Below are positions 4,364 through 13,357 of a DNA stretch of 64,000 bases, in pieces. Both the position numbers and the translations under genes were made by a program. This DNA is from Thermococcus gammatolerans EJ3 (lineage in GTDB: Archaea; Methanobacteriota_B; Thermococci; Thermococcales; Thermococcaceae). Every line of letters starts with the position of its first letter. Within the stretch, counting starts at the first letter, position 1. The notes beneath the pieces were generated by a model that saw only the letters and a list, made by a program, of their open reading frames with translations, ran no database searches and was not told where the DNA came from. The stretch lies in the NCBI RefSeq assembly GCF_000022365.1, contig NC_012804.1, positions 1,426,001 to 1,490,000 of the forward strand, in the 5' to 3' direction.

Positions 4364-4726
4364 ATGGGAAAGAAGCGGTTCATCAGAGAAAGGGAACAGC
4401 GGGAAAAGAAGAGGATTGCCCGCGAGAGGGTCGAGACGCTATTCACGATGGCGGAGAGAGTGTTCCCGTACAGCAGGGAGCTGGCCAACAGGTACGTCGA
4501 AATAGCGCTTGCCGTCCAGCAGAAGGCCAAGATAAGGCTCCCGAGAAAATGGAAGAGGAGATACTGCAAGAGGTGCCACTCCTTCCTCGTTCCCGGTGTC
4601 AACGCACGGGTCAGGCTGAGGAGCAGGCCCTACCCCCATGTGGTCATCAAGTGCCTTGAATGCGGGTACATAATGCGCTACTCGTACCTGAAGGAGAAGA
4701 AGGCAAGGCGCAAGAAAAATGATTAA
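4364..4726 (+). CDS. rnp4: Ribonuclease P protein component 4 (Rpp21/Rpr2 family)
   Basis: About 120 residues, the usual length. Rnp4 is a zinc-ribbon subunit that pairs with another protein subunit and supports tRNA 5' maturation by RNase P RNA. Visible are the basic N-terminal helix, the conserved AERVFPYSRELANRYVEIA segment, the basic RKWKRRYCKRC stretch and two Cys pairs (CKRC and CLEC) that bind zinc. A GTG at 4355 would overlap the preceding stop, but ATG 4364 gives the MGKKRF start typical of the family. The 3' end overlaps the convergent HEAT-repeat gene by four bases. Confidence 0.93.
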   Translation: MGKKRFIREREQREKKRIARERVETLFTMAERVFPYSRELANRYVEIALAVQQKAKIRLPRKWKRRYCKRCHSFLVPGVNARVRLRSRPYPHVVIKCLECGYIMRYSYLKEKKARRKKND

Positions 4727-5487
4727 CTGCCTTCCTTCCTCTCTTCCTCTGATTCAGCAAGTGTTATCTTCATAAGCCCCTCCCTCACCTTTTCCATGAC
4801 GAGTTCGCTGCGGTCGTTGAGTTCCTGGAACTTGACCTTGATGATCTTTCTGAACTTCGGGCTCTTGAGGGCCAGCTCCGTTAGGGTCTCGACGGCGCTT
4901 ATCCTGACTATCTCGTTCCTGTCGTAGAGGAGCGACAGAAGCCTTGGGAGGAACGGGGTCGCGTAGCGGGTCTGGTTTTCCGCGAGGGCGGAGATGAAGT
5001 TGAGGGCGGCGAGACGATCCGTTTCATCGGGGGATGTCAGCATCGAGGCGATTTCCCTCGCTATGTTACCGAGAAGCCGGGGATTGTTCCTCATGATCTC
5101 CTCTAGGACGTAGGCCATGTTTATCCGGATCTTTGGATCGCCTATGCGATAGTTGGCAAGGATCACGGGGACGGTACCCCTGACGAGTTCTGGCTTGATG
5201 CGGGAGAGCACACCAATGGCCTTTGCTATTTCAAGGGTCAGCGGGATCGCCTCGCTCTTTCGTATCATTACGAGCAACTTCCGGAGCAAGGGGTCTATCA
5301 ACTCCTCATACTCCTCAATGACGTTCATAATGACTATCAGTGCGTTTTTCTGGACTGTCCAAAGGTCGTCGTCGAGATACCTTATCACCTGATCGAGGAT
5401 CTCCTTGTCGTACGAGGCACGCACTATAACCTCGTCGAGCTTCTCGCCTGTTGCGAGTGCCTCCCTAACGTCCAGCTCTTCCTCCAT
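4723..5487 (-). CDS. HEAT-repeat protein at the end of the chemotaxis operon
   Basis: 254 residues made of repeated paired helices of about 35-40 residues (for example DLWTVQKNALIVIMNVIEEY, PKIRINMAYVLEEIM, EIVRISAVETLTELALKS), which is a HEAT/armadillo-type solenoid. No signal peptide. ATG 5487 is chosen because GGGGTGG precedes it; a GTG at 5496 is less likely. It is the last gene of the minus-strand run cheY-cheA-cheC-cheF-propeller. In Halobacterium a HEAT-repeat protein works with CheF proteins between Che proteins and the archaellum, so a role as scaffold or adaptor there is a reasonable inference, not shown. Confidence 0.8.
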   Translation of the reverse strand: MEEELDVREALATGEKLDEVIVRASYDKEILDQVIRYLDDDLWTVQKNALIVIMNVIEEYEELIDPLLRKLLVMIRKSEAIPLTLEIAKAIGVLSRIKPELVRGTVPVILANYRIGDPKIRINMAYVLEEIMRNNPRLLGNIAREIASMLTSPDETDRLAALNFISALAENQTRYATPFLPRLLSLLYDRNEIVRISAVETLTELALKSPKFRKIIKVKFQELNDRSELVMEKVREGLMKITLAESEEERKEGS

Positions 5488-6760
5488 GGGAACCACCCCT
5501 CACCGCAAAACCCGCGAGCACGGAGAGGAAAATCATGAAGGCAGGCCCGCAGATACCTTTCGATCCCCTTATCTTTGACAGATCCAGAACGTAAAAGTAC
5601 GAGCTCCCGGTTCCCGCGACCACCAGGTTTCCCTGGACTGCCGTGCTCCTGACGTAACCAACGTTAAGATCCTTCCAGAGCACCTTTCCGTTCTCAGGGT
5701 TGAGAACGTACAGACCTCCCTCACTGTAAACCTTCGTTACATTGCCCTCTCTCCTGCTTTCGAACTTGCCGATTCCAACTATCAGCTTACCGTCCCCGTA
5801 GGCGAGCGTTTTAACCCTGTAAGGAAAGTCCTCGCTCCAGAGGAGCTTCCTCTCATTCAGGTCGTAGGCAGTGACTTTCCCATTTCTCCCATCGAAGCCT
5901 GAAGCGTAGAGGGTGTCTCCAACGACGAGGAGATCCTCAACGAAGAACGTGCTCTCGTTCCACATTACGTGACCGTTCCCATCGACCATTAGGATGTAAC
6001 CCTTGGTGTTGTTGAAGCCCGTTCCTGCTATGGCCTTGCCACCCCACACCTCAAGATCCCGGACCCACCAGCCGGTGCTGATGTTCCAGAGCAGTTTACC
6101 GTCGTAGGAAACGCCGTAGAGCGCGCCGAAGTGGTAATGGGCGGAGTATCCCGAGGGCAGACCGGAGCCAACGTAAACAACGTCCCCGAGCCGCACCCTA
6201 CCGGGCATACTCGGAAGTCTAACCCTCCAGCCGTCTTCAAGCGACAGGCTTCCGTTATCGAGGAGCTTGGCCCTGAAAACTTCCCCAGAGCTGCTGAACG
6301 TGCCGTTGGTGTGCCAGATGTCTCCATCTACCCCGTAAACGTAGCCGTTTTCCATGACAAAGTCATAAAGTTTGTTGGGGGTCGGGAAGTTGGCCTTTAT
6401 GTGGCCTTCCCCATCAAGGAACACGAAACCCCCGAGTCCACCGGCGAGAACACCCCTATCCAAGGGCTGGATTTTAACCACGTAACCCGAACTGTTCACC
6501 CAGAGCCTGCTCCCATTGGTCGAGTAAGCGGCCATAAGACCGAGGTAATAAACCCCGATGAGTTCTTTTCCTGCAGTCATTCTGTAATCGCAGGCGGCAT
6601 AGATGGTGCCGTTTGAGATGGCAACGGCCTCTATGCTCTTCTGGTATGGAATGTCCTCCCCAACCACCCCCTTGAACACCAGGGGGTTTTCCTTTGCCAT
6701 TGCCGGCGCGAGAAGCCCCAGCATTAGAATTAAAGCCAGTCCAATGGCCTTTCCATTCAT
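5465..6760 (-). CDS. Secreted PQQ-like beta-propeller protein within the che operon
   Basis: 431 residues. A signal peptide is visible (MNGKAIGLALILMLGLLAPAMA). The body has recurrent propeller-blade motifs such as GTIYAACDY, VYGVDGDIWH, LLWNISTGWWVRDLEVW, TVYDL-type and GKVLWKD, as in outer-membrane-type PQQ-like repeat proteins. The C-terminus has a short hydrophobic stretch (GPAFMIFLSVLAGFAV) followed by a basic tail, consistent with membrane anchoring outside the cell. It starts at ATG 6760, overlapping the cheF stop (ATGA-type), and overlaps the HEAT gene downstream. Such a protein is not a standard che gene; its function is unknown. Confidence 0.8.
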   Translation of the reverse strand: MNGKAIGLALILMLGLLAPAMAKENPLVFKGVVGEDIPYQKSIEAVAISNGTIYAACDYRMTAGKELIGVYYLGLMAAYSTNGSRLWVNSSGYVVKIQPLDRGVLAGGLGGFVFLDGEGHIKANFPTPNKLYDFVMENGYVYGVDGDIWHTNGTFSSSGEVFRAKLLDNGSLSLEDGWRVRLPSMPGRVRLGDVVYVGSGLPSGYSAHYHFGALYGVSYDGKLLWNISTGWWVRDLEVWGGKAIAGTGFNNTKGYILMVDGNGHVMWNESTFFVEDLLVVGDTLYASGFDGRNGKVTAYDLNERKLLWSEDFPYRVKTLAYGDGKLIVGIGKFESRREGNVTKVYSEGGLYVLNPENGKVLWKDLNVGYVRSTAVQGNLVVAGTGSSYFYVLDLSKIRGSKGICGPAFMIFLSVLAGFAVRGGSHGGRAGR

Positions 6761-7620
6761 TTTTCACCGCCCTCCTTTAGTTTCCTTGCCAGAGGAGTTG
6801 GTTCCACTATCTTTCGTACCCCCTTAATCCGTAGGAGTCCCTTCCTTATCAAGCTGTCGTAGACCCCCTCGACCTTCAGAACATCGAGCCCAAGAACACG
6901 AGGCACGTCAAGCGGATCGATGCCGGCGAGGAGAACATCGAGAACCTCTCTCTCGAGGGGTTCAAGCTCGGGGCGTTTCAGTTCCCTTTCGAGTTCCGGA
7001 AACTCCCGGGAAAGCTCCGCAAGGTAACCCCAGCTCAACGGGGAAAACCGCTGAAGATAGCGCAGTATGAAGAGCCTGATCCTCCTCTCCCCGATTTTAA
7101 GGTCAAAGCTCTCCACACCCGAGGGAGAGTAGACCTTAAACCTCCACAGGGTGTCCTCAAGAACCTCAGCCTCGCTTACCGAAGAAAGGCTCATCAGCCT
7201 CTCCCTCTCATTTTCAACTACCAAAAGCCGCCCAGGCCCGATCAGGCGGAGGTGCACAACGCTCCAGGGTTCTCCGGCTCTCCTCATAAGAACTGGGACT
7301 CCGTTCAAAAGCTCAACGAAGATCCCGTGGATGAAGGCCTCAAACTTTCTCCTGTCGTAGATCAGGGGGTTGTTCCCAACGCTCAGTATGAGAACCCGAT
7401 CGCCCGAGAAACGAAGGGTGAAGTTCGGCTCATCGCACGGAAACGGAGGAAGGAACCCGAGATCCTCAAGCAGGGAGAACGAAAAGAAGTCCTCACCAGC
7501 TTTTTCATCAACAAACCGCATGGAGAGGCCGCTGTGGCTCAGAGTGACTATAACCTCCCTAGTTTGAGTCCTCTTGCCACTCCAAACCACCTCTGCCCGG
7601 GCCCTTAACTCAGCGGGCAT
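6757..7620 (-). CDS. cheF: Archaeal chemotaxis adaptor CheF (DUF439 family)
   Basis: 287 residues. CheF is known in other archaea to link the Che system (CheY, CheC/CheD) to the archaellum motor. The sequence has a beta-rich N-terminal half (VVWSGKRTQTREVIVTLSHSGLSMRF) and a C-terminal helical or winged-helix half ending in KLKEGGEK, matching the two-part layout of the family. ATG 7620 is preceded by GGGGGGTTGAGT and lies 11 bases inside the cheC gene; the longer reading from 7686 is unlikely. Position directly after cheC supports the call. Confidence 0.8.
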   Translation of the reverse strand: MPAELRARAEVVWSGKRTQTREVIVTLSHSGLSMRFVDEKAGEDFFSFSLLEDLGFLPPFPCDEPNFTLRFSGDRVLILSVGNNPLIYDRRKFEAFIHGIFVELLNGVPVLMRRAGEPWSVVHLRLIGPGRLLVVENERERLMSLSSVSEAEVLEDTLWRFKVYSPSGVESFDLKIGERRIRLFILRYLQRFSPLSWGYLAELSREFPELERELKRPELEPLEREVLDVLLAGIDPLDVPRVLGLDVLKVEGVYDSLIRKGLLRIKGVRKIVEPTPLARKLKEGGEK

Positions 7621-8215
7621 ACTCAACCCCCCTGGACCGCCTACCAGTCCTCTTAAAGGGCTCGGGATATCGGGCCAGCATCTCAAAGAAGTCCGCAGAA
7701 GGAATTATGTAAACCTCAAGACAGCCCCCGTGTTCATCGTAAACAAGCCCCACAAACACGGGGAGCTTCTTTCCCCCACCGAGAAAGTTCAGAACCCTCT
7801 CAAGCTGATCAACTGTTTTTATGGAAAAGGGAACGCTGGGGAGGAGTTCGTAACCCAGGGAGTTCGAAAGCCTGCTGGCAAATTGGCCGGCTATGACGTT
7901 ACCCAGTTCCCTGAGAAGGGACTCCATAAGCTCCCTAATGTTGTAAGTCTCGAGAATCCCCGTCTTTTTCAGTTTTAGAAGGCGACTCACGATGGTGGAA
8001 GAGTTCTCAAAATCGAAGGCCATTATTAGCTCCGGGCTATCGCCTATGGCAAAGCCCACGAAGTTCACGCCCTCCAAGAGGCCCCCAATAACCAAGTCGG
8101 AGGACGAGATCACCCGAAACTCCGAGAGTTCCATCTTGCCAGTTGGGTCGATTTTGGCGAGCGACTCCCTTAGGGCTCTCTCAAGCAGTCGTCCCACAAG
8201 CCTAACGTTTTTCAC
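7610..8215 (-). CDS. cheC: Chemotaxis protein CheC
   Basis: 201 residues of the CheC/CheX/FliY phosphatase family, which dephosphorylates CheY-P. One phosphatase-type motif is clear (ESLLRELGNVIAGQFAS, around residues 93-109, with the E...N pair). The first motif near residue 20 is less obvious, so it may act mainly as a CheD or CheF binding partner. It starts at GTG 8215 and overlaps the cheA stop by 14 bases, and its own end overlaps cheF. Cytoplasmic. Confidence 0.85.
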   Translation of the reverse strand: MKNVRLVGRLLERALRESLAKIDPTGKMELSEFRVISSSDLVIGGLLEGVNFVGFAIGDSPELIMAFDFENSSTIVSRLLKLKKTGILETYNIRELMESLLRELGNVIAGQFASRLSNSLGYELLPSVPFSIKTVDQLERVLNFLGGGKKLPVFVGLVYDEHGGCLEVYIIPSADFFEMLARYPEPFKRTGRRSRGVEYAR

Positions 8216-10433
8216 ACACTAATCCCTCCATAAGGCTGATCAAGTCTATAAGCGGAACCGGCTCCCTGCCTCCCATGATTATCACTCCGGTGAAAACACT
8301 CTTCTCTACCTCAGCGGAAGGAACCAGCGAGCGAAGGGACCTAACGACGGTCTCCTTCTTTCCAAGAATCCGATCAACGAGCACGAGCACCTTCTCCTTA
8401 CCATCCTTATCAAACTGAAACAGAAGTCCCTCGACCTCACCCTCGGGCAGTGGAGCAAAGTCCTCGACAATGTCGTGGAGAAGAACTGCCGGGAAAATTC
8501 CTGAGGTGTGGGCCGCGACGTAGACACTTCCCACCTTCCTCACGCTCTCAGCCCCGAGCTTGAAACTATCGAGAATCCCTATGGAGGGAATTGCATATTT
8601 CTTCCCTCCAACCTCGACGATGTAAACAGGAATGATCAGCACGTCGGTCGGAACCCTCAGCGTTATTACGGTACCTCTACCCTCCTCACTGCTTACGTGA
8701 ACGCTACCGTGGAGTTCCCTTATCGACTCCATAACCACGCTCAGACCAAAGCCCCTTCCGCTCTCCTCAGAAACTTCCCTCTCCGTGCTCATTCCCGGCT
8801 TAAATATCAGCATAAGCGCTTCCTTCCTAGAGAGCCTCTTGGCTTCTTCCGGTGTTATTATGCCCCTCTCTACAGCTCGTTTCTTGACCTCACTGATGTC
8901 GATTCCCCTCCCGTCATCGCGAACGCTGACCTCAACGTAGCTCGGATGAGGAACGATGCTTATCTCGATGAGCCCCTCAGGGGGCTTTCCAATTCTGAGC
9001 CTTTCTTCACTCCCCTCAATACCGTGAATAACGGCGTTTCTAAGTATGTGCACGAGTGCCTCCCATACGACGGCGGCCACCATCCTATCGACGGCGACGT
9101 CCTCTCCCAGGATAGTAACTTTAACCCGCTTTCCTTTCTCCGCTGCCAGCTTTTCGATAGAAGGTATCAGCTCTGCTATCCTGTCCCTGAGTTTGACAGT
9201 CCGAAGGGAAGTAACCGTCTTCCTCAGCCTCTCGATGGTTTCCAAAAGTTTACCGCTCAGCTCCTCTATCTGCTCGGGATTGAAACTGCCAGAGGTTATA
9301 TCTCTCAACCATTCTCCAATCGCTACAAGCTCACCTAGAGAGTAAAGAAGCTCGTCCAGAGCTGAAACATCAACGGGAATAGTTCTCTTCCGTGACCTGA
9401 AGGGTAATGGCCTGATTTTTTTACCCGAGAACGATTTCCGTTCCGTGGACTCCCCTTCCGGCTCCCCGATCTTAATAACATCTCGAACCCCCGGGTGGCG
9501 AAGAACTAACTCCCTGACTCTCTCGAATGACAGCTCGCTTTCCAAAAGTACCTCAAAGAAACTCTCACCAAGCAGCATACCATCTTTTATCTCCCCCTCT
9601 GGGGGATTCACCGACAGTACCCTACCCGCCTTCCTGAGGTCTTGGATGATAAGAAGCGCCCGTGCAGCCTTAAAAGGAGTCTCCTCTGTAAGGTAAATCC
9701 TGAGCCTGAGCTTTCCTTCTTTTCTTTCGTTTTGTCCTCCATGCCCAAGCACCTCCACTTTTCTGACACCGTTCACGGAACCGAGCTCTTCCTTGATTTC
9801 ATCTGGGCTTAATGGACTCTCAATAACAAGTTTAAGCCGTTCTCCCGGCTTAGTCCGGCCCTCGATAATATCATTAACGTCCGGCTCTGAAGATATCAGG
9901 TGACCCAGTCTCTGCAGTTTGGAAAGAACCGCAAAGGTCCACACAGGGATCTTCTCGGAAACAGGCTCAAAGCTCACAACAACCTCGTACCTTTTCTCCA
10001 GGGCAACCTTCAAAGGGGGGAGCTTTCCAGCTTTTCTCGAGGCGTTTTTAAGATAAAGGGTTGCCCTAGCTATCACAGGCGACAGTTCAACTTCCCTCTC
10101 GTCCCCAAAGTCCTCAATGGAATGTATCAGCCGGTCAATTGAGACTATTAGCTCCCGAATTATGGAGAGAAGGTCCTCGTCCAGGGAAAGGTTACCCGAG
10201 CGGATCATATCCAGAATCGTCTCGAGCCAGTGCGCAGCCTGGGTAAGCTTTGGAAACCCAGCCAAGGAAGCCGTGCCCTTAATCGTGTGGGCACTCCGTA
10301 TCATTTCCTCGACGGTCTTTGAAAGATTTTCCTCATCACCACTAAGCCGGGAAAAAAGCTCTTTGAGCTCCACAACCTTTTCTCTTGCTTCTTCCAGGAA
10401 ACTCCCGATATAGTTTGCCCCGATGATGGTCAC
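8202..10433 (-). CDS. cheA: Chemotaxis histidine kinase CheA
   Basis: 743 residues from GTG 10433. Domains in order: Hpt with phospho-accepting His in SAHTIKGTA (about residue 48); a long P2-like region; a P3 dimerisation helix after VDVSALDELLYSLGELV; the ATP-binding P4 domain with HILRNAVIHGIE (N box), DDGRGID (G1) and GRGFGLSVV (G2); and a CheW-like P5 domain at the end. An in-frame reading continues upstream to 10571 but would overlap cheY and cross the hairpin at 10443-10513, so the GTG (VTIIGANYIGSFLEE) is preferred; no strong ribosome-binding site is seen. CheW, CheB, CheR and receptors are not in this window. Confidence 0.95.
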   Translation of the reverse strand: MTIIGANYIGSFLEEAREKVVELKELFSRLSGDEENLSKTVEEMIRSAHTIKGTASLAGFPKLTQAAHWLETILDMIRSGNLSLDEDLLSIIRELIVSIDRLIHSIEDFGDEREVELSPVIARATLYLKNASRKAGKLPPLKVALEKRYEVVVSFEPVSEKIPVWTFAVLSKLQRLGHLISSEPDVNDIIEGRTKPGERLKLVIESPLSPDEIKEELGSVNGVRKVEVLGHGGQNERKEGKLRLRIYLTEETPFKAARALLIIQDLRKAGRVLSVNPPEGEIKDGMLLGESFFEVLLESELSFERVRELVLRHPGVRDVIKIGEPEGESTERKSFSGKKIRPLPFRSRKRTIPVDVSALDELLYSLGELVAIGEWLRDITSGSFNPEQIEELSGKLLETIERLRKTVTSLRTVKLRDRIAELIPSIEKLAAEKGKRVKVTILGEDVAVDRMVAAVVWEALVHILRNAVIHGIEGSEERLRIGKPPEGLIEISIVPHPSYVEVSVRDDGRGIDISEVKKRAVERGIITPEEAKRLSRKEALMLIFKPGMSTEREVSEESGRGFGLSVVMESIRELHGSVHVSSEEGRGTVITLRVPTDVLIIPVYIVEVGGKKYAIPSIGILDSFKLGAESVRKVGSVYVAAHTSGIFPAVLLHDIVEDFAPLPEGEVEGLLFQFDKDGKEKVLVLVDRILGKKETVVRSLRSLVPSAEVEKSVFTGVIIMGGREPVPLIDLISLMEGLVCEKR

Positions 10434-10442
10434 CCCCGTAAA

Positions 10443-10513
10443 GGCCGGCCGGGTAGTGCACCTCTGAGACAGTGAATCTCTAGCTCTTTCCAGCCTCCCT
10501 ACCCCGGCCGGCC
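10443..10513 (-). other. Long GC-rich inverted repeat filling the cheY-cheA gap
   Basis: GGCCGGCCGGGTAG (10443-10456) is matched by CTACCCCGGCCGGCC (10499-10513): 14 paired bases with one bulged C, around a 42-nt loop with a smaller GAGA/TCTC stem. It occupies almost the whole 82-nt space between the cheY stop and the cheA start, so in the mRNA it would form a very stable stem. It is not a tRNA or C/D-box RNA. It could protect the cheY mRNA end, attenuate cheA or be an independent structured RNA. Confidence 0.75.
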
Positions 10514-10515
10514 AC

Positions 10516-10884
10516 CTATTCCTGGCTCGATAGTACTCTCTCGACTTCTTTGAGCACCTGTGAGGGTTCAAAGGGCTTGACTATATATCCGGAGGCCCCG
10601 GCTTCTATGCACTCTATAAGTTTCTTATCATTATCCACAGAGGTTATCATGATAACTTTGGCATTGGGATCAATTTTCTTTATCTCCTGCAGGGCAGTTA
10701 TACCGTCCATGTCCGGCATTATTATATCAAGTGTTATAACATCGGGGCGGAGCTTTGAGTAGAGTTCAATCGCTTCCTTACCAGTGGATGCCTCACCAAC
10801 TACCTCATGCCCGGCCTCTGTGAATATTTTCCTGAGCAGTATCCTCGCGAAGAGCGCGTCATCCACTATCAGTATTCGCGCCAT
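10516..10884 (-). CDS. cheY: Chemotaxis response regulator CheY
   Basis: 122-residue single receiver domain. It carries the acidic pair DD at residues 8-9, the phospho-acceptor Asp in DVITLDIIMPDMDG (about residue 53), the conserved Thr in IMITS and the Lys in VKPFEP. When phosphorylated by CheA it signals the archaellum motor, via CheF in archaea. First gene of the minus-strand che run; GGGAGG precedes ATG 10884. The upstream region contains the repeats at 10930-10953 shared with the archaellin promoter. Confidence 0.96.
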   Translation of the reverse strand: MARILIVDDALFARILLRKIFTEAGHEVVGEASTGKEAIELYSKLRPDVITLDIIMPDMDGITALQEIKKIDPNAKVIMITSVDNDKKLIECIEAGASGYIVKPFEPSQVLKEVERVLSSQE

Positions 10885-10929
10885 CGTTCCTCCCTCTAAA
10901 CTGTGTTTTTCGTAAACTAAAACCCTTGT

Positions 10930-10953
10930 GTGTAGGTAATTGTGTAGCTACAC
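10930..10953 (-). promoter_or_regulatory. CTACAC repeats upstream of cheY, same type as at the archaellin promoter
   Basis: Read on the minus strand there is GCTACAC (10948-10942) followed exactly 12 bp later by CCTACAC (10936-10930). The first unit lies inside a perfect 12-bp palindrome GTGTAGCTACAC (10942-10953). The T/A-rich TATA candidates for cheY lie at about 10911-10923. The element and its 12-bp period match 12585-12615. Confidence 0.6.
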
Positions 10954-11031
10954 TCTCCCAATCCTCGTGGTTTTGGAAAACTTACAATGCACACTCGCGG
11001 TCACACTCATCATTTGGAAAAAATACAACAA

Positions 11032-12006
11032 TCAGGGCATCAGGGTAACTCTCAGCAGACTGCGACCGAGGGGCTCTATAGAGACATCAAAACCGTTCCC
11101 TTCAATGGTTCTTATGACATCGTTCCTTCTGGGAAAGCCTACGAAATCCTTGTTCAGCTTCTCAAAGAACTCCAATGCCTCAATGTGTTTGAACTCTTCT
11201 CTGAAGGGTTCAAGGATAATCAGCCGTCCGCCGGGTTTGAGGGTCTCCAGCGTCCTCTTCAGAACCCTGCCGTAGTCATCGGGCTTTAAGTACTCCAGAA
11301 GGTAGCTGATAACGGCCACGTCGTATTCGTTCACGGGCCGGATCAGACGAACGTCAAGTTCTTTCAGCTCAACTGGCAGGTTATCAGTCTCAGCACGACT
11401 CTTCGCTATCTCAAGGATCGCTGAGGAGTAGTCCACTCCCGTGTAGAAGCCGTCGTATCCTACAATTCTTCCAAAATAGCTGGGAGCAGCCGATCCGCAG
11501 CCGAGGTCAAGCACGCTCATTCCCTGCTCGAGCCCTGCGGCTACTGAAATGGTTTTTCTGTAAAGATCGGCGAAGTCTGTCGTCATCCGGATGTCCCAGA
11601 AGTCGGCGTCTTTATCAAAGTCCATGAGCACGTGGGGGTGCGTTGGCGTTATGAACGCGTAGTCAACCATCCTATATATTTCTTCGAGCGTGGAGACCCA
11701 GCCGGGCAGGAGTGAATCATAGTGCTCCTGCGGAACTTTCAAGGTGCAGGAGAACCCGTTGAGCTTTAACCTGCCTTCTTTTTCCTCGATGATTCCTATT
11801 GCCTTCAGGGTGTTCAGGAACTCGAGGAGGAGCCTCCTGTTAGGAAGTCCCACGGAATCAAGGACTTCCTGGTATGTCGGTTCCCTTGAAAGAACTTTGA
11901 AAATACCGTGTTTGGTGCCAAGCTGTATTATATGGAGTATTGCCATCCTGACCATCTGCTCGATGTTGGAATCAACAACTGAAACAAGCCTTTCAACGGT
12001 GTCCAT
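11032..12006 (-). CDS. SAM-dependent methyltransferase with N-terminal winged-helix-like domain
   Basis: 324 residues. The N-terminal part (about 1-95; LGTKHGIFKVLSREPTYQEVLDSVGLPNRR) resembles the helical dimerisation domain of plant/bacterial O-methyltransferases. The C-terminal part has the SAM motif VLDLGCGSAAPSYFG (motif I) and LKPGGRLIILEPF (motif IV/post-I region). ATG 12006 is chosen because GGTGATCAGG precedes it; the longer reading to 12063 would overlap the regulator gene. It lies 10 bp after the EarA-like gene and so is in its operon. Comparable methyltransferase genes flank fla loci in Pyrococcus. The substrate is unknown; it is not CheR. Confidence 0.8.
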   Translation of the reverse strand: MDTVERLVSVVDSNIEQMVRMAILHIIQLGTKHGIFKVLSREPTYQEVLDSVGLPNRRLLLEFLNTLKAIGIIEEKEGRLKLNGFSCTLKVPQEHYDSLLPGWVSTLEEIYRMVDYAFITPTHPHVLMDFDKDADFWDIRMTTDFADLYRKTISVAAGLEQGMSVLDLGCGSAAPSYFGRIVGYDGFYTGVDYSSAILEIAKSRAETDNLPVELKELDVRLIRPVNEYDVAVISYLLEYLKPDDYGRVLKRTLETLKPGGRLIILEPFREEFKHIEALEFFEKLNKDFVGFPRRNDVIRTIEGNGFDVSIEPLGRSLLRVTLMP

Positions 12007-12016
12007 CCTGATCACC

Positions 12017-12352
12017 TCACATGAACTTCCTGTAATACCTATAGTATTCCCTGAGGTATTCAACCACCTGTTTTCCGTACTCTGTAAGCCGGTAGTACTT
12101 AAAGCCGCCGTTGGTTATCTCCTCGACGAGGCCAAGGTAAACGAGGGAGCTTTCGCCATTGTAGCGGTTTCCAAGGCCAACCAGCGCCCCGCGAACGTTC
12201 GATGGATCGGACCCAACAACCCTGGCGATCTCAGAAAGGTAAGTTGCCGACGGGTATATCTCATTCAGGTAAAGGAGAATTCTCTTTCTCAGCTCACTCC
12301 TGTGTAGGGACCTCAACACTTGTGGGTCTATGATCATTGTCCTTACGGCCAT
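12017..12352 (-). CDS. earA: Winged-helix regulator, probable archaellum activator EarA
   Basis: 111 residues with one wHTH domain (LRKRILLYLNEIYPSATYLSEIARVVGSDPSNVRGALVGL) and a basic aromatic C-terminus (YYRYYRKF). It sits divergently next to the archaellin operon. EarA of Methanococcus, with homologues in Pyrococcus, is a small wHTH activator of the fla promoter that binds TACATA-type sites; size, domain and position fit, and a TACATA is present in the intergenic region. The assignment is by pattern and context, not alignment. GGAGGTG precedes ATG 12352. Confidence 0.7.
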   Translation of the reverse strand: MAVRTMIIDPQVLRSLHRSELRKRILLYLNEIYPSATYLSEIARVVGSDPSNVRGALVGLGNRYNGESSLVYLGLVEEITNGGFKYYRLTEYGKQVVEYLREYYRYYRKFM

Positions 12353-12450
12353 CCGCCCCCACCTCCAGTGTTACTCTGCGGCCTTTAGCCCGCTGATTTT
12401 ACTGCCCCACTGACCATCTATGGCAGCCAACACTTTGTTTGTTTGGATAC

Positions 12451-12457
12451 TATATAA
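12451..12457 (-). promoter_or_regulatory. TATA box of the earA-like gene
   Basis: Minus-strand TTATATA within CGTTATATAGTATC, giving a start near 12425 and a leader of about 70 nt. It is part of the 339-bp intergenic region 12353-12691, which otherwise holds the CTACAC repeats, the archaellin promoter and AT-rich sequence without a gene. Confidence 0.5.
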
Positions 12458-12584
12458 CGTTTTTGGTTTTGAATTGTACTCATTCCAGCATTTGTCCATT
12501 TAATCTGCTGCCAATGCATTGAATATAATTTATTTTGCAGGATTTTCAAAATCTGGTCAGGAAATTTCCAAAACCCGAGGACTA

Positions 12585-12615
12585 CCTACATATGCACCTA
12601 CACAACCAGCTACAC
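12585..12615 (+). promoter_or_regulatory. Three 12-bp-spaced direct repeats upstream of the archaellin promoter
   Basis: CCTACAT (12585-12591), CCTACAC (12597-12603) and GCTACAC (12609-12615) recur at exactly 12 bp. The first contains TACATA (12587-12592), the hexamer reported for EarA. The last repeat ends 20 bp before the TATA box, an activator-like position. Confidence 0.65.
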
Positions 12616-12635
12616 TACTAAGAACAAAAAAGCGA

Positions 12636-12643
12636 TTTATATC
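12636..12643 (+). promoter_or_regulatory. TATA box of the archaellum operon
   Basis: TTTATATC preceded by an A-rich BRE (AAAAAAGCGA). It predicts transcription start near 12663, which excludes the ATG at 12662 and supports ATG 12692, preceded by GGGGGTG. Confidence 0.7.
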
Positions 12644-12691
12644 GTAAGCTTGTAATCATTAATGCAAACAACCCCAGGGGGTGCATGGCTG

Positions 12692-13357
12692 ATGAAGGCC
12701 AAGAACAGAAGAGGTGCGGTTGGTATTGGAACCTTGATAGTGTTTATTGCCATGGTGCTAGTGGCGGCAGTGGCTGCAGCAGTCCTCATCAACACGAGCG
12801 GCTTCCTCCAGCAGAAGGCTTCAAGCACCGGCAGACAGAGCACCGAACAAGTCGCCAGCGGAATACAGGTCATGAGGGTTACAGGACACTACGATGGATC
12901 CAGCGGAATAGACAAGCTCGCTATCTATGTCACTCCGAACGCCGGCAGCTCGGGGATTGACCTCAGCAACACAAGGATAGTACTGTCCAATGGTGACAAG
13001 CAGGCCATTCTGAAGTTTGCCAAGAACAACGTTACGAGCACTCTTCCGAGCAACATATTCGACACCAGCCTGACCGCATGGGATTATATAAACTATGGAG
13101 GCACGAAGGGATACACCTACTACGGTATCATTGTCGTCCAGGACTATGACGGATCCCTCACGGAATCAACCACAACGCCGACCCTCAACAAGGGTGACAT
13201 AGCTATCCTCACCGTTGATGTGAATGGGCTGTTCGGTGCTTCTATTGATGTCAGGAAGCACATTACTGGGCAGGTTGTCCCCGAGTTCGGTGCACCGGGC
13301 GTCATCGACTTCACCACCCCAAGCACCTACACCACCGATGTTGTTGAACTCCAGTGA
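12692..13357 (+). CDS. arlB1: Archaellin (flagellin) 1
   Basis: 221 residues. Class III (type IV pilin-like) signal: basic [13 protein letters not shown] followed by the hydrophobic [19 protein letters not shown] helix, with prepilin-peptidase (FlaK/PibD) cleavage expected after the Gly before TLIVF. The conserved C-terminal end of archaellins ([15 protein letters not shown]) is present. Subunit of the rotating archaellum filament. First of four tandem archaellin genes; the start is fixed by GGGGGTG and the promoter. Its first ~140 coding bases and its 3' part are almost identical to archaellin 2. Confidence 0.96.

Follow-up and report, generated by a model that had tools for sequence, protein, structure and literature searches.

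The 64-kb window, by which we mean the whole stretch of DNA that was analysed, carries an archaellum operon on the + strand and a che operon on the - strand, with the gene for the winged-helix transcription activator EarA located between the two (Table 1). The archaellum operon consists of four archaellin genes, followed by the gene for FlaC and then by more archaellum genes; the more likely start codon of the first archaellin gene, arlB, is the ATG at 12692, which is found 10 bases past AGGGGG. In the che operon the order is cheY, cheA, a CheC/CheX-like gene, an ORF of 309 aa, a gene for a PQQ-type beta-propeller and a HEAT-repeat gene, and the true start of cheA lies 3' of the TTG that is given in the list of open reading frames.

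Table 1 Features of the archaellin and cheY promoters and of the genes nearest to them
Feature	Position in window	Strand	Basis or remark
EarA box 1, archaellin promoter, ACCTACAT	12584..12591	+	sequence reading, pattern search
EarA box 2, archaellin promoter, ACCTACAC	12596..12603	+	sequence reading, pattern search
EarA box 3, archaellin promoter, AGCTACAC	12608..12615	+	sequence reading, pattern search
Empty or degenerate fourth 12-bp slot, from archaellin array to BRE, TACTAAGAACAA	12616..12627	+	
BRE-like AAAAGCG, archaellin promoter	12628..12634	+	weak A-rich BRE type, after PMC10665913
TATA box TTTATA, archaellin promoter	12636..12641	+	
arlB, first archaellin gene	12662..13357	+	PF01917 5e-45; NCBIfam flagellin
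earA, winged-helix transcription activator EarA	12017..12352	-	PF07381 E=1.2e-32
EarA box, distal, cheY promoter, AGCTACAC	10942..10949	-	
EarA box, proximal, cheY promoter, ACCTACAC	10930..10937	-	adjoining BRE
BRE-like ACAAGGG, cheY promoter	10923..10929	-	AAG.G invariant, 8 genomes
Weak TATA-like TTTTAG, cheY promoter	10917..10922	-	invariant, 8 genomes
cheY, first che operon gene	10516..10884	-	PF00072 4e-32; CheY_Halo 2e-39
cheA, second che operon gene	8202..10571	-	P2, Hpt, HATPase_c domains; CheA_Halo 1e-84
CheC/CheX-like phosphatase gene	7610..8215	-	PF04509 2e-6

EarA and its genomic surroundings

The sequence-only reading had proposed that the winged-helix protein at 12017-12352 controls both operons. 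This protein is EarA: it has the PF07381 domain, the length of about 110 aa and the winged helix by which the family is recognised. In an AlphaFold model, the confidence of which is low (pLDDT 61), the order is helix-helix-helix-strand-strand-helix, and a sequence search against the PDB yielded no significant match. The protein is well conserved (mean column identity 89% for ten aligned sequences), a match is present in 72 of 94 family genomes, and nearly all genomes scanned have a single PF07381 gene. By profile search the domain is absent from G017, G019, G026, G031, G038, G040, G041, G049 and others. EarA-like PF07381 domains also occur within larger proteins, encoded by open frames of 435-470 aa (G073:C1:1416892-1417122, G077:C1:2174727-2174954 and G085:C22:1117-1407). 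Directly 3' of earA lies a gene for a SAM-dependent methyltransferase (11032-12063, - strand), which is found beside earA in G018 too.

The che cluster (4723-10884, - strand) resides in a host genome in which no MCP (PF00015), no CheR (PF01739) and no second CheY-like (CheB) receiver match were found; G020, G032, G055 and G067 resemble it in having che genes without MCP, CheR or CheB receiver. The cluster encodes a CheA-CheY-CheC system that lacks both receptors and methylation. The 309-aa protein (6757-7686, - strand) matched nothing in Pfam or NCBIfam, not even at E=0.1-1, and its C-terminus resembles, by eye, a winged helix; it is possibly a divergent CheF-like adaptor that links CheY to the archaellum.

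Arrangement of the boxes relative to BRE and TATA

The three archaellin units that had been claimed to precede the TATA box at an exact 12-bp period are present nearly where they had been placed (12584-12615), the first one with the hexamer TACATA (12587-12592), and the two units proposed for the cheY promoter were likewise recovered at this period (10949-10942 and 10937-10930, - strand). The distal cheY box is part of a palindrome, GTGTAGCTACAC. The fourth 12-bp slot of the archaellin promoter is near-invariant among fla promoters and absent in che, MCP and AAA-ATPase promoters.

The position of the array differs between promoter classes by a single step. In all 18 fla promoters the TATA box begins 20 bp (8+12) past the last box, as compared to 6-8 bp in most of the che and MCP promoters with a recognised TATA-like hexamer. 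Where the array precedes che, MCP or AAA-ATPase genes, the BRE follows it without a gap, and in archaellin promoters the array ends exactly one 12-bp step before this position. The two TATA offsets thus point to a common rule, with boxes placed in 12-bp steps that end at the BRE, and the promoter sequences indicate that fla leaves the last slot empty or degenerate. Of the helical-phase array that had been envisaged, the 12-bp step and the register with BRE and TATA proved to be strict; the helical phase itself is only approximate, since 12 bp corresponds to about 1.14 turns of B-DNA. Published arlB0 promoters keep a fixed spacing of about 9-11 nt from the last box to the BRE, which is seen at fla and not at cheY; there box and BRE are contiguous, closer by one 12-bp step, which makes the cheY promoter a geometric variant instead of an arlB0-type promoter.

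The archaellin half of this arrangement is already known. Thermococcales archaellin promoters were described to carry A(C/G)(C/G)TACA(T/C) in up to three adjacent copies (Stockl 2023; PMC10665913), and the window shares with that system the octamer, the number of copies, the weak A-rich BRE and the location of earA beside the archaellum cluster. The scan in that paper is restricted to regions upstream of arlB genes, EarA is held to be specific for arlB0 and chemotaxis genes are proposed as future work; boxes at che or MCP genes are not described in its accessible part. The fla promoter of Methanococcus maripaludis resembles that of the window in having several short EarA sites directly upstream of a weak BRE, but these are four sites with the 6-bp consensus TACATA whereas the window has an octamer; the EarA of this organism is thought to recruit TFB (Ding et al.; PMC5512572), and the portion of that paper at hand describes no che targets. 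The earlier idea that the motif deviates from the published hexamer is therefore correct with respect to Methanococcus, although the motif equals the octamer published for Thermococcales (PMC10665913). That archaella need EarA has been shown by others for P. furiosus and M. maripaludis. TFB-RF1 and Ptr2, as cited in PMC10665913 and PMC5512572, are archaeal activators that bind just upstream of BRE/TATA and recruit TFB or TBP; they differ from EarA in protein and sites, and the likeness is a mechanistic analogy only.

Occurrence of the tandem box in Thermococcaceae

For genome scans the dimer was defined as ASSTACAY-N4-ASSTACAY, with the reversed pattern as control. Allowing at most one mismatch, the pattern ASSTACAYNNNNASSTACAY has three matches in the window, all at the archaellin and cheY promoters, and none in 100 dinucleotide shuffles of it. 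The whole 2.05-Mb host genome contains only these same three as exact dimers, at an independent-base expectation of about 0.05 per genome and with no exact match of the reversed control. The genome-wide motif scan suggested earlier thus confines exact dimers of the host to the archaellin and cheY promoters. Among host-genome matches with one or two mismatches, the one at 889289 lacks a convincing promoter or gene and the one at 1910662 lies inside ORFs; neither was counted as an EarA target. A match at 1110599 was also left out, as it is a palindromic operator-like site 3' of a TATA. This palindrome, ACCTACATGTGTAGGTACAY, is located between two divergent genes (G000:C1:1110599-1110630) and recurs at G023:896135-896166, G029:723790, G041:888504 and G067:C27:135129; since it occurs in an EarA-less genome, it is probably the operator of another regulator.

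The earlier reading would have been refuted had related fla and che promoters lacked the repeats, yet both promoter groups retain them, fla in most genomes. None of the eight genomes that possess a che cluster of the window type has lost the cheY dimer, and in the alignment of these eight both boxes, the GTGTA before them and the AAG.GTTTTAG after them form largely invariant blocks, outside of which the promoter DNA is divergent. Many Thermococcus and Pyrococcus-like genomes have another che operon type, with cheR as the first gene. When 1,500 bp upstream of cheY were searched in 22 such operons, the best dimer (0-2 mismatches) was located in each case at the same site directly before cheR, often as an array of three units, 12 bp apart.

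In 94 genomes 122 exact dimers were found, against 11 in total for the reversed pattern, and they are distributed over fla (76), che (9), MCP (18), AAA-ATPase (7) and earA (1) promoters, with 11 elsewhere; some of these counts across genomes are inflated by close relatives. Exact dimers are present in 55 of the 71 genomes with earA and in 5 of the 23 without it (Fisher p=3e-6, phylogeny uncorrected). For 80 MCP upstream windows, a dimer with at most one mismatch was detected in 39 (reversed pattern, 0) and with two mismatches in 48 (reversed pattern, 2), and unit spacing peaks at 12 bp (47/86 unit pairs). Most MCP genes that lack the dimer immediately follow coding sequence or come from G073, which is without a normal EarA, and in one orthologous MCP family the boxes are inverted and placed about 60 bp upstream of the TATA. 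A matrix trained on fla promoters only outscores every background piece in 8/8 cheY, 18/22 cheR, 9/9 Thermococcus AAA and 41/80 MCP windows; it barely recognises DUF835 promoters (1/18).

The seven exact dimers at AAA ATPases all belong to one gene. In nine Thermococcus genomes a conserved EarA dimer precedes the gene for this AAA ATPase of about 360 aa (e.g. G021:C1:1640593-1641700), which is a candidate motility or taxis component; its Pyrococcus-like orthologues are without boxes. A further candidate target is the host gene for a DUF835 protein (G000:C1:1828357-1828806; PF05763 2e-22), which is preceded by the array GCCTGCAT-GTGC-ACCTACAT-AACC-ACTTACAA-AAAAGG-TACTTATAT, with similar arrays upstream of its orthologues in more than 20 genomes. 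The DNA directly 5' of the host array (G000:C1:1828806-1829000) has features of a C/D-box RNA (TGATGA...CTGA...TGATGA), and this C/D-box-like sequence is conserved in many relatives.

A probable role of EarA in the control of motility and taxis genes

Expression studies with T. kodakarensis have already grouped these genes. In histone mutants the fla (TK0038-0050) and che (TK0630-0638) genes fall together, along with the MCPs TK0156, TK2147 and TK1606, TK1605 and the AAA ATPase TK1139; no transcription factor stood out to the authors as an obvious candidate in their transcriptome (PMC8155482). When a bacterial gyrase is introduced, most of the fla/che/MCP/AAA set rises together, and MEME analysis identified a 23-bp motif, TTTGTGTABSTGBTTATGTAGGT, in six promoters, comprising fla, che, MCP and AAA-ATPase promoters (Villain 2021; PMC8643681). 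Its function was termed "unclear" and sensitivity to topology was proposed; EarA is named nowhere in that paper (0 occurrences). The reverse complement of this motif is ACCTACATAAVCASVTACACAAA, in which two EarA octamers with a 12-bp step precede AAA. Compared with the 23-mer consensus, the fla promoter of the window has sites with 2 and 3 mismatches, and at cheY no site was found within 3 mismatches, although the two cheY octamers fit the box. In G023, promoter dimers with at most one mismatch occur at fla, at an MCP gene (126 kb), at MCP/cheR (537 kb), at the AAA ATPase (997 kb) and at 1,410 kb, the last one between genes and of the inverted-site class; judged by gene number, these positions would fit TK0038, TK0156, TK0630/0631, TK1139 and TK1605/1606. 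A link between the 23-bp motif and EarA is absent from PMC10665913 and from the other literature found, and within the literature searched neither the che half nor the assignment of the motif to EarA appears to have been described before.

The claim that the winged-helix protein controls both operons gains support from these comparative and published expression data, and with considerable confidence we propose that fla and che are served by one mechanism. EarA would bind ACCTACAY units head-to-tail, 12 bp apart, in arrays that end at the BRE, at one 12-bp step from it in fla and adjoining it in the promoters of che, MCP and AAA genes. From there it would probably recruit TFB (and TBP) to a weak BRE/TATA and so activate the two operons; on this view EarA would sit on the che and MCP boxes as well and contact TFB. 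The regulon in Thermococcaceae would comprise fla, che, most of the receptor genes that have their own promoter, the AAA ATPase and possibly the DUF835 gene.

A different possibility is that EarA serves only fla, as in the arlB0-specific role assigned to it in PMC10665913, and that che, MCP, AAA and DUF835 genes are controlled by another protein, either a second regulator that recognises the same half-site or an EarA relative. The BRE-abutting geometry, one 12-bp step off that of fla, would agree with this, and so would the persistence of boxes in genomes without detectable EarA. G041 (99% complete), which lacks EarA and archaellins, has kept an intact DUF835 array; G049 (a 96% complete draft), in which archaellin and cheY were not found, has kept AAA and MCP dimers; G019 and G026 have eroded DUF835 arrays. 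Recent loss of EarA or assembly gaps are plausible causes of such boxes. The second regulator is nevertheless improbable, as box sequence and step are equal to those at fla, the presence of dimers tracks earA, nearly all genomes scanned offer a single PF07381 gene, and the EarA-less G073, in which receptors are present, has no dimer at its one MCP gene examined.

Another reading, which follows the idea of PMC8643681, takes the motif not for the operator of a protein but for a stretch of DNA through which promoters become responsive to supercoiling or to packing by histones. The opposite responses of motif-bearing genes to gyrase expression and to histone mutation are in line with this idea, but the octamer is directional, its 12-bp step is strict and its distance to the TATA is fixed, as is typical of activator sites, and the fla boxes match the EarA sites defined by genetics in Methanococcus (PMC5512572) as well as the EarA motif published for Thermococcales. 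We regard a pure DNA element as very unlikely. The two ideas need not exclude each other, as activation through EarA could be sensitive to supercoiling. Chance resemblance of the cheY repeats, with the archaellin array as the only functional one, would suit the location of the proximal cheY box, which unlike the fla boxes is 7 bp from a TATA-like element; with conservation in 8/8 genomes, the parallel at 22/22 cheR-first operons and zero matching shuffles, this is almost certainly wrong, and the conservation data already contradict it.

We return to EarA, which is likely to be the master activator of the Thermococcaceae motility-and-taxis programme, acting through a BRE-docked 12-bp array, with the 23-bp gyrase/histone motif as its operator. 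The programme is meant here to include fla, both che operon types, receptors, the AAA ATPase and the DUF835 protein. EarA, so far a regulator of one operon, would then become the regulator of a regulon, and a conserved T. kodakarensis motif, to which no function was assigned on publication, gains a likely protein. This would offer a mechanism by which swimming and chemotaxis genes respond together to changes in chromatin and supercoiling, and the AAA ATPase and the DUF835 protein are nominated as new motility genes. Finally, the geometric rule of 12-bp steps ending at the BRE suggests how an archaeal activator may reach TFB.
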